Assembly (NCBI RefSeq): GCF_900143265.1
Contig: NZ_FRDJ01000001.1
Location: 372,001-436,000 of the forward strand
Reading direction: 5' to 3'
Source of the DNA: Fervidobacterium gondwanense DSM 13020
GTDB lineage: Bacteria > Thermotogota > Thermotogae > Thermotogales > Fervidobacteriaceae
Length of the DNA: 64,000 nucleotides
The translations under genes were made by a program, and so were the position numbers. Below the pieces are notes generated by a model, which worked only from the letters and a program-made list of their open reading frames with translations, ran no database searches and was not told the DNA's origin. Below, piece after piece: positions 28,458 to 32,962 of the stretch. The first letter of the stretch is position 1. Each line of letters opens with the position of its first letter.

Positions 28458-29339
28458 CTAAACCGCTTGTTCTTCTTCAAGCTCGGTCAGAAATTTTAAG
28501 TAGCTCTCGTATCTGCTTTCAGGGATTTTCCCTTTTTCAACGAGTCTTTTTACATGGCATTCTGGCTCGTCTACGTGTAAACAATCAGGGAAGAAACACT
28601 TCTCGTTATCGAATTCCACAAACAGATCTCTGAGTTCGATCGGTTGTATGTGCGAAATTTCAAGGCTCGCAAAACCTGGCGTGTCAACCACCCAACCGCC
28701 AGAAGAGATTCTCAAAAGCTCTGCAGCGGTTGTGGTATGTTTGCCGCGCTCAAGTTTTTCAGAGATTTCGCCAGTTCTCAGTTTCAAATTTTCATCAATT
28801 GCATTTAAAAGACTGCTTTTTCCAACACCCGACATTCCTGCAAAAACAGATACCTTGCCATGTAGCTTATCTTTCAACTCATCGACACCAATCTTCTGAA
28901 GTGCACTCGTCTTAATTATGGGATACAACTTTCCGTAAATACTCTCAAATTCAGATATCTCCTCTTGACTTAACAAATCAACTTTATTGAGGACAATTAC
29001 TATTGGGAGATTTTCGTACTCAACAAGGACAATGAACCTATCGAGTATGTCGTATGGCACTTGCGGCTTTTCCAATGTAGTTACTATAACAACTTGATCA
29101 ACATTTGCAACACTGGGTTTTTTAAGCTCATTATTTCTGTTCAATATATTTTCGATAACGCCCTCATTTTTCACGATATGCAAGTACTCAACGATATCAC
29201 CAACGATAGGTCTTATACCTTGCTTCTTGAATTTGCCACGCAATTTGCAGAGCAAACGTTCTCCATTTTCCAAATCCTCAACGACAAGGAGGTTCGAATA
29301 GAACTTGACAACTCTTGCGAATTTTCTTTCAGACTTCAC
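28458..29339 (-). CDS. rsgA: Ribosome small-subunit-dependent GTPase A
   Basis: A circularly permuted GTPase that helps late maturation of the 30S subunit. An N-terminal OB fold (residues 1-70) is followed by G4 (VLNKVD), G1 (AGMSGVGKSSLLNAI), G3 (DTPGFASLEI), and a C-terminal zinc motif built from CFFPDCLHVDEPECHVK, with three Cys and one His. The 293-residue length is typical. The GTG at 29339 lies two bases after the stop of the PASTA gene, whose last codons hold GGGAGGTC as ribosome binding site. The order rlmN-PASTA-rsgA mirrors Firmicutes loci. Confidence 0.93.
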   Translation of the reverse strand: MKSERKFARVVKFYSNLLVVEDLENGERLLCKLRGKFKKQGIRPIVGDIVEYLHIVKNEGVIENILNRNNELKKPSVANVDQVVIVTTLEKPQVPYDILDRFIVLVEYENLPIVIVLNKVDLLSQEEISEFESIYGKLYPIIKTSALQKIGVDELKDKLHGKVSVFAGMSGVGKSSLLNAIDENLKLRTGEISEKLERGKHTTTAAELLRISSGGWVVDTPGFASLEISHIQPIELRDLFVEFDNEKCFFPDCLHVDEPECHVKRLVEKGKIPESRYESYLKFLTELEEEQAV

Positions 29340-29341
29340 GG

Positions 29342-30100
29342 CTAAAACTGACCTCCCTGTGTTGTTTCAGCTGAACTTTCTTGCCCATTTTCAAAACTAC
29401 CAGCGCCCTCTTCCTGTTGAAGTTGCTCCGACTGATTTTCTAAACTCTGGGACGTTCCCTGAGAAGACTCAATCGGTATCTCCGGTGGTATGACGTCAAC
29501 CGGTAACGATACATCCGTTGAAGGTTCTGACTCTTCAGATGAAGTCGTAGGCTGCTGGATTACAGATGCAGTTCCACTGCTAATAAACAAAGTCACCAAA
29601 TCTCCGTTCTTAACCTTGTTACCGGAAGTTGGCGCAGTAGAGATGACAACACCGTTTATCCCGGGTTCATTTGTGTTCCTGACGATAGTGCTAACACCTA
29701 TCAATTCAAGAATATTCTGCACGCTTTTGTACCAGATGCCTTTGAAGTCAGGCAATATAATGCTCTTTTCTACTATGCTCTGTGCAAAGAGCTTCACTTT
29801 CCTACCTTGTTTAACCACAGTATTGCCTGGCGGGTCCATTTTGATGACTCTTCCGCTTTCGCCAATTATTTCAACCCTAAAACCTTTCTTTGATAGCTCG
29901 TCTTTAGCTACCTGAACGTCCACCCCAACATAATTAGGAAGCAGTGCGGTCCCTTTTCGAGCATCTACGTACATCACAAGATAAAAAGCAAGAAATCCCA
30001 GAAAACTTCCGGCGAATATTGTTAGTATCAACAGTATTAAAGACCTTGCGGGTGCGAAATGTCCACGTTTCATATTTCCTTTCGCTCTCTTATCTATCAA
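29342..30100 (-). CDS. PASTA-domain membrane protein without a kinase domain
   Basis: A 252-residue protein: short basic cytoplasmic tail, one membrane helix (SLILLILTIFAGSFLGFLAFYLV), then two PASTA repeats at about residues 50-115 and 116-180. The first has LPNYVGVDVQVAKDELSKKGF and the second LPDFKGIWYKSVQNILELIG. A Ser/Gln/Glu-rich tail ends the protein. PASTA domains bind peptidoglycan or muropeptides and normally form the sensor of PrkC/PknB Ser/Thr kinases or the tail of PBPs. No kinase residues exist here and no phosphatase gene is adjacent. TTG 30100 follows GGAGGGATATGC; ATG 30073 (MKRGH) is an alternative. It lies between rlmN and rsgA. Confidence 0.85.
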   Translation of the reverse strand: MIDKRAKGNMKRGHFAPARSLILLILTIFAGSFLGFLAFYLVMYVDARKGTALLPNYVGVDVQVAKDELSKKGFRVEIIGESGRVIKMDPPGNTVVKQGRKVKLFAQSIVEKSIILPDFKGIWYKSVQNILELIGVSTIVRNTNEPGINGVVISTAPTSGNKVKNGDLVTLFISSGTASVIQQPTTSSEESEPSTDVSLPVDVIPPEIPIESSQGTSQSLENQSEQLQQEEGAGSFENGQESSAETTQGGQF

Positions 30101-30129
30101 GCATATCCCTCCAATTACAAGTTTTGTGT

Positions 30130-31179
30130 TTATGCTTTTTTCTTATCTATATGCCTTCTCCTCAGCTGACCACACGCGGCATCTATATCCGTACCCTTTT
30201 CTTTTCGTATCTCGTTTTCTATATTGTGCTTATCTAAAACCTCTTTGAACCTCTCGATAGCCCAGTGGTGCGGCCGCTCCATTTTAATCTCGCCAATGGT
30301 CGGTACCGGGTTAATAGGAATTAGGTTTACATAAGCTCCCATGCCCCTGAGAAGCTCTGCCAATTTCTCAGCATCGTCTACAAAATCATTGAATTCCCTG
30401 ATGAGAATGTACTCGAAAGTTACTCTGTTTTTTGTAATCCTTTGATATTCTTTTGCAGCATGAATTATTTCTTCTACAGAGTACTTTTTGTTCATAGGTA
30501 CTATCATATCTCTTTTAAAGTTCGTTGGCGCATGTAGTGATATAGCGAGCTTGACTTCCGGTAAGTCGTTGCCAAGTTGCACTATCCTCTCAGGGATTCC
30601 AACGGTAGAGATGGAAATCCTCCTCATACTCATGTTTTTGCCCTTCTTGTGATTCAACATCTTAACACTCTTAACAACTTCGTTGTAGTTCAGCAGAGGC
30701 TCTCCCATGCCCATGTAAACCACATTCCCTATGTTCACGCGTCTTTCCTTTTCCATAGCTATCACTTGTGCAACTATCTCACCAGCTGAAAGATTCCTAA
30801 CAAATCCGCTTTGCCCAGTCGCACAAAAAGCGCACTTTGCAGGACAGCCAACCTGCGATGAGATACAGGCCGTTACCCTATCAGGATGAAATAGCAAAAC
30901 GGATTCTATCGTGTTTCCATCTTCGAGCTTCCAAAGAAATTTCGTAGTCTTGTCTATCTGAGAAATCTGCATATCGAGAAGCTCCGGGATATTGATCAAA
31001 AATCTATCACTGAGAGCTTCCCTGTGCTCTTTTGAAAGGTTTGTCATTTCACTGAAAGAAAAGACTTTCTTTTTGTAAATCCAGTCCCAAACCTGATCCA
31101 CTCTGAATTTCTCCAATCCGAGCTTATTAAACTCTTCAATTAATTCTTCGTAACTGAAATCCAGTAAATTCTTCCTCAT
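30130..31179 (-). CDS. rlmN: 23S rRNA (adenine(2503)-C2)-methyltransferase
   Basis: A radical-SAM enzyme that methylates C2 of A2503 in 23S rRNA, and A37 of some tRNAs. The iron-sulphur motif is CPAKCAFCATGQSGFVRNL. GNVVYMGMGEPLLNYN and RRISISTVGIPERI are strong RlmN signatures. The C-terminal catalytic Cys lies in DIDAACGQLRRRH. The longest frame begins at 31239, but ATG 31179 follows AGAGGTGGTAGTAGT and starts the conserved MRKNLLDFSYEELIEEF segment. Length is 349 residues. It is downstream of two other radical-SAM genes. Confidence 0.94.
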   Translation of the reverse strand: MRKNLLDFSYEELIEEFNKLGLEKFRVDQVWDWIYKKKVFSFSEMTNLSKEHREALSDRFLINIPELLDMQISQIDKTTKFLWKLEDGNTIESVLLFHPDRVTACISSQVGCPAKCAFCATGQSGFVRNLSAGEIVAQVIAMEKERRVNIGNVVYMGMGEPLLNYNEVVKSVKMLNHKKGKNMSMRRISISTVGIPERIVQLGNDLPEVKLAISLHAPTNFKRDMIVPMNKKYSVEEIIHAAKEYQRITKNRVTFEYILIREFNDFVDDAEKLAELLRGMGAYVNLIPINPVPTIGEIKMERPHHWAIERFKEVLDKHNIENEIRKEKGTDIDAACGQLRRRHIDKKKA

Positions 31180-31217: not shown

Positions 31218-31979
31218 CTATTTTACATAGAATGAACAACAGCCTGTTTTGTCGTAACTTTTATTGACAGGCTTTACAACAAAATCAACTTTTCCGCACA
31301 ATCTCTTTTGTAGTTCTTTTCTGTACTCTCCTTTCGGATGCATACACCCTAAAACCACGTTTTCAAAAATTTCTCTCGCCTTATCGAAAACTTTTACAAC
31401 ATCATCTATGTCAGGTGCTGGGCAATTTTGAAACGCTGTATTCGGCGTAGGTATAAAGATGTTCAGAACGATACTTTTGAAATACTTAGAGAGCATTTCA
31501 AGGGCTGTATATTCGTGACTCATTTTACCACATAACACACCGATTGTGATGTGTGGAACTTTCTTCACTTTCAGAGGCAGAACACTTTGCAATATCTGTT
31601 CTGGTGTGCGCTCTATGCCGTAGATTTGTTTCAAGACATTTTCATCGCCGTAGAAATCAAAACTGATCAAATCAGCAACGTTTTCCAGTTCAAAAGGCGG
31701 ATCTTTCGGAAAGCCGATATGGAAGTTATAGGTCAAGTCATACTTTTCTTTCATCGTTTTCAAAAATTCCAGATACTCTCCAAACGGTATCTCGCCATTT
31801 GGAAGCATCCCGCCACTAACCAAAAACGACTTATACTTCTCGGCATATTTCTCAATTTCACTAACGTGAACCATGTGTTTTACGTAATGTCCACCGCAAT
31901 GAGCACAGTTAAGTGGACAGCCTTTTGTTACAGATATTGGTAATGTTGCTGATGGATCAATGCCTACGTAACAGCTCAA
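31218..31979 (-). CDS. Uncharacterised radical-SAM protein
   Basis: A protein of 253 residues with the radical-SAM cluster motif CPLNCAHCGGHYV near the N-terminus, LVSGGMLPNGE, and a barrel with DLISFDFYGDENVLKQIYG and HITIGVLCGKM. Three further Cys occur near the C-terminus (RLCGKVDF and TGCCSFYV), which could bind an auxiliary cluster or metal. It resembles the biotin-synthase-like superfamily in layout, but I cannot name the reaction. The frame can start at TTG 31994, ATG 31988 or TTG 31979. I prefer 31979, eight bases after GGAG and overlapping the upstream stop as TTGA. Translational coupling with the COG1313 gene suggests a shared pathway. Confidence 0.75.
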   Translation of the reverse strand: MSCYVGIDPSATLPISVTKGCPLNCAHCGGHYVKHMVHVSEIEKYAEKYKSFLVSGGMLPNGEIPFGEYLEFLKTMKEKYDLTYNFHIGFPKDPPFELENVADLISFDFYGDENVLKQIYGIERTPEQILQSVLPLKVKKVPHITIGVLCGKMSHEYTALEMLSKYFKSIVLNIFIPTPNTAFQNCPAPDIDDVVKVFDKAREIFENVVLGCMHPKGEYRKELQKRLCGKVDFVVKPVNKSYDKTGCCSFYVK

Positions 31980-32884
31980 ATTCTGCATCTCCAATCTACT
32001 GGAAAGGTTGTAACACGTTCTTTTTCATCAAGCTGCATCCAACCATCTAAATCAAGTTCTATGAGCTTATCGAGTGCACTCTCGTATTCATCTTTAGTGA
32101 TTTTCCTATTGATCAGTTCGTCCTGCTTCGCCCCAAAATGCGGTATGTACTGAGACATCAGCGCAACAGAAATCTTCTTATCAAGTGATGCGATAAACTC
32201 TAGCGCTCTATCGTGACCGCTGACGTTGTTTGGAAGGACCAAAATCCTGACTATTAGACCCCTCATCTTCTCTTCGTCAAAAGGACCAACCTGCCTGTAC
32301 ATTTCACGTATGGCTTTCTGAGTAACATCCCAGTAATCAGGTACTTTAGAATATTGCATTCCATAACTATTGTCAGTATACCTAATGTCAGCAAGATATA
32401 TATCTACGTACCCTTCAAGTGCCTTTATCACTTCAACACGCTCGTAACTTGATGTATTATACACAACAGGAAGCTTGAAACCTCTTTCCCTTGCTATATC
32501 GAGTGCCTTTACTATCCAGGGAATATGTGGTGTTGGTGTTACAAGGTCCAACGTTTGAGCACCAGCTTCTTGAACTCTTAAGAACGCGCAAGCGAGTTCT
32601 TCTGCGGATATCTCGAAACCGACACCTTTCTGAGAAAACCCCATGTTTTGGCAGTAAATACACTTCATCTGGCAGCCGGAGAAAAAGACAGCACCCGCAC
32701 CGTTCTCGCCAGAAAGCGGTGGCTCTTCTCCCTTGTGCAAGACTATATTTGAAACCTTCGGCAAATACCCAACACCGCAGATGCCTTTGGTAGTCCTTCT
32801 ATCCACTTGGCACATCCGAGGACAGAGCGTGCAACTTTCTAAAATCTCCAAATTTGACAACGACTTTAATTCGACACTTTCCAT
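31976..32884 (-). CDS. Radical-SAM protein of the PflX/COG1313 type
   Basis: A 302-residue protein. An N-terminal Cys-rich segment (ESCTLCPRMCQVDR followed by GICGVG) is typical of COG1313 proteins. The radical-SAM motif GCQMKCIYCQN follows, then TLDLVTPTPHIPWI and VVYNTSSYERVE. The family is annotated as pyruvate formate-lyase-activating-enzyme-like, but no glycyl-radical enzyme is nearby and the function is unknown. ATG 32884 lies eight bases after AGGAGTG; a GTG one codon upstream is equally possible. The longer frame up to 32950 runs through its own promoter. It is the first gene of the minus-strand run leading to rsgA. Confidence 0.82.
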   Translation of the reverse strand: MESVELKSLSNLEILESCTLCPRMCQVDRRTTKGICGVGYLPKVSNIVLHKGEEPPLSGENGAGAVFFSGCQMKCIYCQNMGFSQKGVGFEISAEELACAFLRVQEAGAQTLDLVTPTPHIPWIVKALDIARERGFKLPVVYNTSSYERVEVIKALEGYVDIYLADIRYTDNSYGMQYSKVPDYWDVTQKAIREMYRQVGPFDEEKMRGLIVRILVLPNNVSGHDRALEFIASLDKKISVALMSQYIPHFGAKQDELINRKITKDEYESALDKLIELDLDGWMQLDEKERVTTFPVDWRCRI

Positions 32885-32934
32885 CACAGTTTCACTCCTA
32901 ACCATTTCGAATTGAAGAATTATCCATTTAACAA

Positions 32935-32962
32935 TTATATCATGTAGCATCGATGCATGAAT
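32935..32962 (-). promoter_or_regulatory. Promoter of the radical-SAM/rlmN/PASTA/rsgA run
   Basis: On the minus strand TTCATG (32962-32957), 16 bases, then TATAAT (32940-32935). The spacer contains the 10-bp palindrome GCATCGATGC. The -10 lies about 50 bases upstream of the start at 32884. Confidence 0.5.

Follow-up and report, generated by a model that had tools for sequence, protein, structure and literature searches.

PASTA kinases are central wall sensors. In the literature they are presented as a Gram-positive feature (see, e.g., PMC4478028). The genome of Fervidobacterium gondwanense DSM 13020, a member of the Thermotogota, raises a question in this context: between rlmN and rsgA it carries a gene for a membrane protein with PASTA repeats, and in the Bacillota the same position is occupied by prpC and the PASTA kinase gene prkC. 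What is this protein, did its lineage ever possess the kinase, and what would it do without one? To answer this, we analyzed a 64,000-nucleotide stretch of contig NZ_FRDJ01000001.1 (positions 372,001 to 436,000; hereafter, the window), its source genome and the corresponding loci of other bacteria.

The PASTA gene and its protein

A sequence-only reading of the window had described the order rlmN, PASTA membrane protein, rsgA, and all three genes are indeed present on the minus strand (Table 1). According to the sequence, the PASTA gene begins 29 nt after rlmN and is followed by rsgA after 2 nt, and 6 nt separate the GGAGGG site from the start codon. Given the Shine-Dalgarno-like site, the TTG start and the two short gaps, rlmN-PASTA-rsgA has the appearance of a compact operon. 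Two radical-SAM-like genes in head-to-tail overlap immediately precede rlmN on its strand (window positions 31218-32950), the second of which was assigned by reading alone. This pair and the three genes possibly form one operon.

Table 1. Positions of the PASTA gene, its neighbors and its predicted parts in the window
Feature	Position	Strand	Basis or remark
Gene for the PASTA membrane protein (PrkC-type, kinase-less)	29342-30100	minus	252 aa, TTG start
rlmN, upstream neighbor	30130-31179	minus	TIGR00048, 388 bits (cut-off 290)
rsgA, downstream neighbor	28458-29339	minus	TIGR00157, 241 bits (cut-off 100); PF03193, E 9e-57
GGAGGG, Shine-Dalgarno-like site of the PASTA gene	30107-30112	minus	Sequence reading
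Membrane helix, residues 17-47	29960-30052	minus	AlphaFold2 model; alignment with the TM segment of PASTA kinases
PASTA unit 1, residues 51-106, loop shortened	29783-29950	minus	Pfam, AlphaFold2 model
PASTA unit 2, residues about 115-175	29576-29758	minus	Pfam, AlphaFold2 model
Disordered Ser/Gln/Glu-rich tail with terminal QGGQF	29345-29563	minus	Low pLDDT

In the Pfam scan, the protein matched PF03793 with 69.8 bits against a cut-off of 23.2 (E = 1.9e-19), in two units, and kinase (PF00069), PP2C and transpeptidase domains were absent. The AlphaFold2 model, in which pLDDT is at least about 90 for most of residues 21-174, shows the helix, the two PASTA units and the disordered tail. The earlier description is confirmed, in which the kinase and phosphatase domains were missing and a membrane helix and two PASTA repeats remained. 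The N-terminus ahead of the helix is rich in Lys and Arg, and this charge leads us to predict an N-in/C-out topology. The terminal QGGQF is identical in the window protein and in the proteins of two near relatives (L034 and L035), and it is a possible docking motif.

Comparison with PASTA kinases

The best NCBIfam match of the protein was the PASTA kinase model NF033483, aligned only over model positions 334-510, which represent the TM helix and the PASTA portion. The score of 59.5 bits lies below the 450-bit family cut-off, and the N-terminal Hanks kinase domain that the family requires is missing, so that the protein falls outside the family. A profile of the PASTA proteins of the phylum matched Bacillota PASTA kinases with an E-value of 3.7e-27 over columns 337-554, beginning at the TM segment of the kinases. 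The two kinds of protein also appear to share their architecture: the alignment is co-linear from about model position 333 onward, and in the predicted model the PASTA units directly follow the TM helix in an extended tandem, as expected of the PrkC type. Unlike PrkC, Stk1 and PknB, which have three or more PASTA units, the window protein has two, and it differs from them further in the absence of a kinase domain and of an adjacent prpC. An adjacent PP2C gene is typical, though not universal, for PASTA kinases; here rlmN directly precedes the PASTA gene, and the PP2C gene of the source genome sits in an accessory island. Overall, the comparison shows a protein that corresponds to the part of PrkC/PknB-type kinases formed by the TM helix and the extracytoplasmic PASTA units, and that lacks the kinase domain.

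The likeness extends to the locus, rsmB-rlmN-...-rsgA-rpe. In four Bacillota-type loci (L225, L227, L228 and L245), the Zn-peptidase gene and rsmB precede rlmN in this order, and rlmN is followed by a gene of about 245 aa, the PASTA kinase gene, rsgA and rpe. The small gene at this position encodes a PP2C where it was scanned (L183, L193 and L224). In the phylum of one Bacillota-type genome, all 109 genomes had a PASTA match, and the best match lay in a kinase-length ORF in all but two. These two apparent stand-alone genes proved to be artefacts: L222 contains an assembly gap, and in L223 a frameshift leaves the kinase in another frame.

Distribution in the Thermotogota

PASTA matches were found in 99 of the 103 genomes of the source phylum and Pkinase (PF00069) matches in 27; among the PASTA matches listed, none coincided with a Pkinase match. 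Most of the genomes that carry a stand-alone PASTA gene, defined here as an ORF under about 330 aa, have no PF00069 match. Such genes adjoin rsgA in 56 of 63 cases among the matches listed. The order rlmN-PASTA-rsgA was present in nearly all of the 20 relatives' loci that we read, and rpe comes next after rsgA in most of the loci from families other than the window's. In one relative (L050) the full order is Zn-peptidase, rsmB, rlmN, PASTA, rsgA, rpe and ham1. When it is completed from such relatives, the window locus is, as judged by gene order, a Bacillota prkC locus from which prpC and the kinase domain are missing. The analogy to rlmN-prpC-prkC-rsgA that had been drawn from the sequence is thereby extended in the relatives, upstream to rsmB and the Zn-peptidase gene and downstream to rpe. 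The same reading was to be given up if the gene order were absent in all other Thermotogae; it is in fact widespread in the phylum. None of the relatives' loci that we read showed a remnant of PP2C or of the kinase.

Exceptions to this order were also observed. In six genomes of family f3 the PASTA gene and rsgA are not neighbors. In families f8 and f9 (L098-L106) the locus reads Zn-peptidase-rsmB-rlmN-rsgA-rpe, and the PASTA gene is cleanly absent between rlmN and rsgA. Therefore, the PASTA protein is dispensable in some lineages. Many f9 genomes also contain a second rsgA-like gene.

The number of PASTA units varies within the phylum. One relative (L047) has three full units, in f3 and f11 members the third is degenerate, and families f1, f2 and f10 have two units, the first of which has a shortened loop. 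In the window's lineage the protein has been reduced to two units and a tail predicted to be disordered.

Kinase-less PASTA proteins beyond the phylum

We also surveyed a domain-wide sample with one genome per family (G103-G244), in which PASTA matches were found in 54 of 72 and 51 of 70 genomes. Outside the phylum, 80 loci with non-PBP PASTA proteins were read, comprising 82 proteins. For 53 of the 82, rpe lies no more than 4.5 kb away on the same strand, and 59 are near one or more of rpe, rsmB, rsgA, rlmN and the Zn-peptidase gene. As many as 72 of these proteins are shorter than 400 aa, and they were counted as kinase-less because this length is too short for a kinase plus PASTA units; rpe is beside 49 of them, and rpe, rsmB, rsgA or rlmN beside 55. 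The order PASTA-rsgA-rpe occurs in three outside loci (L083, L088 and L139), and kinase forms occur at rsmB/rpe-type loci in L093, L152 and L153.

A scan with a 4-sequence alignment yielded loci of named groups. The order rsmB-PASTA-rpe, without a kinase, occurs in Desulfobacteraceae (L174) and candidate division KSB1 (L177), and the genomes of L174's group contain eight further loci with kinase-less PASTA genes at rsmB and/or rpe. Clostridia (L175, L183 and L193) have the kinase form, and Bacteroidota have stand-alone PASTA genes in other settings, for example, beside a pseudouridine synthase gene (L190). Two unusual arrangements were also seen: L117 (6164-7747) has two stand-alone PASTA genes in tandem, flanked by rsmB and rpe, and the rsmB-PASTA-rpe locus of L148 (6309-7733) encodes three units followed by about 240 more residues of unknown kind, with no kinase.

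The profile of the phylum's PASTA proteins matched the outside stand-alone proteins with an E-value of 1.5e-32, which is far beyond chance. The outside stand-alones in turn matched the Bacillota kinases with an E-value of 4.6e-63 over 314 columns, that is, over the whole ectodomain: the TM helix, three PASTA units and the stretch that follows these. A homologue of this post-PASTA region had been considered for L047 and L046; the alignments give no support for it.

The window protein resembles the stand-alone proteins of other phyla in that it consists of a TM helix and PASTA units without a kinase, and in its neighborhood, with rlmN and rsgA adjacent in the window and rpe and, in L050, rsmB in the relatives' loci. 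It differs from them in number of units and in its C-terminus: they mostly have three full units, in many cases with additional C-terminal sequence, whereas it has two, the first with a short loop, and ends in a disordered tail. The proteins of other phyla carry the generic name 'PASTA domain-containing protein' and presumably correspond to COG2815. Taken together, the shared architecture and neighborhood show the window protein to be a member of a widespread kinase-less PASTA family of the rsmB-(rlmN)-PASTA-(rsgA)-rpe neighborhood. Given that kinase-less versions are common in many bacterial groups, the window gene is no local oddity. In the open literature that we searched, we found no description of stand-alone PASTA proteins at this type of locus.

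Gain or loss of the kinase

If such proteins are so common, then which came first? We tentatively consider that an ancient stand-alone PASTA protein in the rsmB-rlmN-rsgA-rpe locus predates the PASTA kinases, a reading that is plausible rather than probable. On this account, prpC and a Hanks kinase domain would have been inserted upstream of it once, toward the Bacillota, giving PrkC, and the source phylum and many others would retain the pre-kinase form. One gain is simpler than many losses given the breadth of the kinase-less loci, and this judgment depends on the root of Bacteria.

It is possible, and we think rather unlikely, that the protein is instead a relic, left as a bare ectodomain when an ancestor with a full prpC-prkC pair lost the phosphatase and the kinase domain. 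Such a loss can be seen at the corresponding locus of a Bacillota-type genome (L224, 5143-6607; G325), where a PP2C gene is followed by a gene for a kinase-less 192-aa protein with two PASTA units, and a PASTA kinase is encoded elsewhere in the genome (L242). This arrangement indicates what appears to be a clear recent loss of the kinase domain with the phosphatase kept, and therefore the relic route does occur in nature. In addition, a tree joining the phylum's proteins with the Bacillota kinases was not rejected (AU p = 0.967). However, the relatives' loci that we read showed no trace of a phosphatase or kinase, the 103 genomes of the phylum show no PASTA kinase among the PASTA matches listed, and kinase-less versions prevail among the families that we sampled elsewhere, so that many losses or one very deep loss would be needed.

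Phylogenetic trees contributed little: those of single units and of the ectodomain gave little resolution on gain versus loss. An arrangement that placed the phylum's proteins with the stand-alones, away from the Bacillota kinases, was withdrawn because forcing them together with those kinases gave a better-scoring tree than the unconstrained search. The sequence-only reading had offered a relic or an ancestral stand-alone protein as the two choices. Its relic route has a precedent in L224; what it missed is the kinase-less PASTA gene at the same locus in many bacterial families.

Penicillin-binding proteins as an unlikely source of the PASTA units

PASTA units also occur in class-B PBPs, and their descent from a protein of the SpoVD/PBP2x type that landed beside rlmN would be a further, very improbable, explanation. 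The evidence for it comes from unit 1, for which, across most of the phylum's members, PBP units score about as well as the first unit of stand-alone proteins, and which shares a short loop with the PBP units; the ambiguity is probably due to this shortened loop. The rest of the protein is unlike SpoVD, PBP2x and FtsI in all but the PASTA fold. It has no transpeptidase domain, its N-terminal TM helix stands directly before the PASTA units, its predicted tandem is extended and packed in another way, it matches kinase ectodomains co-linearly, and its locus is of the prkC type. The profile of the phylum's PASTA proteins matched the phylum's PBPs in one unit only (E = 4e-6). In a Foldseek comparison, in which domain placement derives from the predicted structure, the model grouped with the PknB and PrkC ectodomains, with an rmsd of 3.3-3.4 to PknB PASTA1-2 and of about 13 to the PASTA pairs of PBP2x and PBP1. 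Given the architecture, the locus, the tandem fold and the profile scores, we reject a PBP origin. A grouping with PBP-type PASTA domains, which would have counted against the first reading, is found neither for the whole protein nor for its tandem fold, and unit 1 alone is ambiguous.

A genome scan found no other PASTA-like sequence in the source genome than a degenerate C-terminal unit on its FtsI-type PBP (L269, 808-2577; G000:C1:258417); the counterpart of this unit in related families is well conserved. Because the FtsI-type PBPs of the window's family retain the degenerate unit, it has become less likely that the family lost its PBP-attached PASTA and depends on the stand-alone one.

Function and significance

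The explanation that we favor, and regard as probable, is that the window gene encodes a reduced, kinase-less member of the PrkC-type family that serves as a wall-binding adaptor and not as a phospho-receptor. It is a single-pass inner-membrane protein, and its PASTA region is predicted to lie outside the cytoplasm. Interactions with fragments of peptidoglycan are described for PASTA families (PMC4478028 and references therein), and by analogy the protein may bind peptidoglycan or lipid II as an adaptor on the periplasmic side and may position or modulate wall-synthesis enzymes. Such an adaptor role seems most likely, rather than that of a phospho-signaling receptor. The protein has no phospho-output of its own, and therefore signaling would need a partner.

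A search for a separate Hanks kinase, which had been proposed as a check, yielded one in the source genome, of 372 aa and without PASTA units. It is encoded in an accessory island (L094, G000:C18, 4835-14976), in which cas1 is followed by the kinase gene, two genes without a Pfam match, and PP2C, FHA and VWA genes. Signaling by the PASTA protein through this kinase, as a split receptor, is the least likely of the explanations considered, given that the kinase gene belongs to that island and that PF00069 is missing from most genomes with a stand-alone PASTA gene.

By comparison with its homologs, the F. gondwanense protein is one reduced member of a broad, little-described family. Because the complete PrkC ectodomain is found without a kinase, in the same neighborhood, across many other bacteria, we suggest that this PASTA region plays a role in its own right. 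The kinase-less loci also provide a concrete and testable model for the origin of the kinase, and kinase-independent roles of PASTA could be studied in organisms that lack it.
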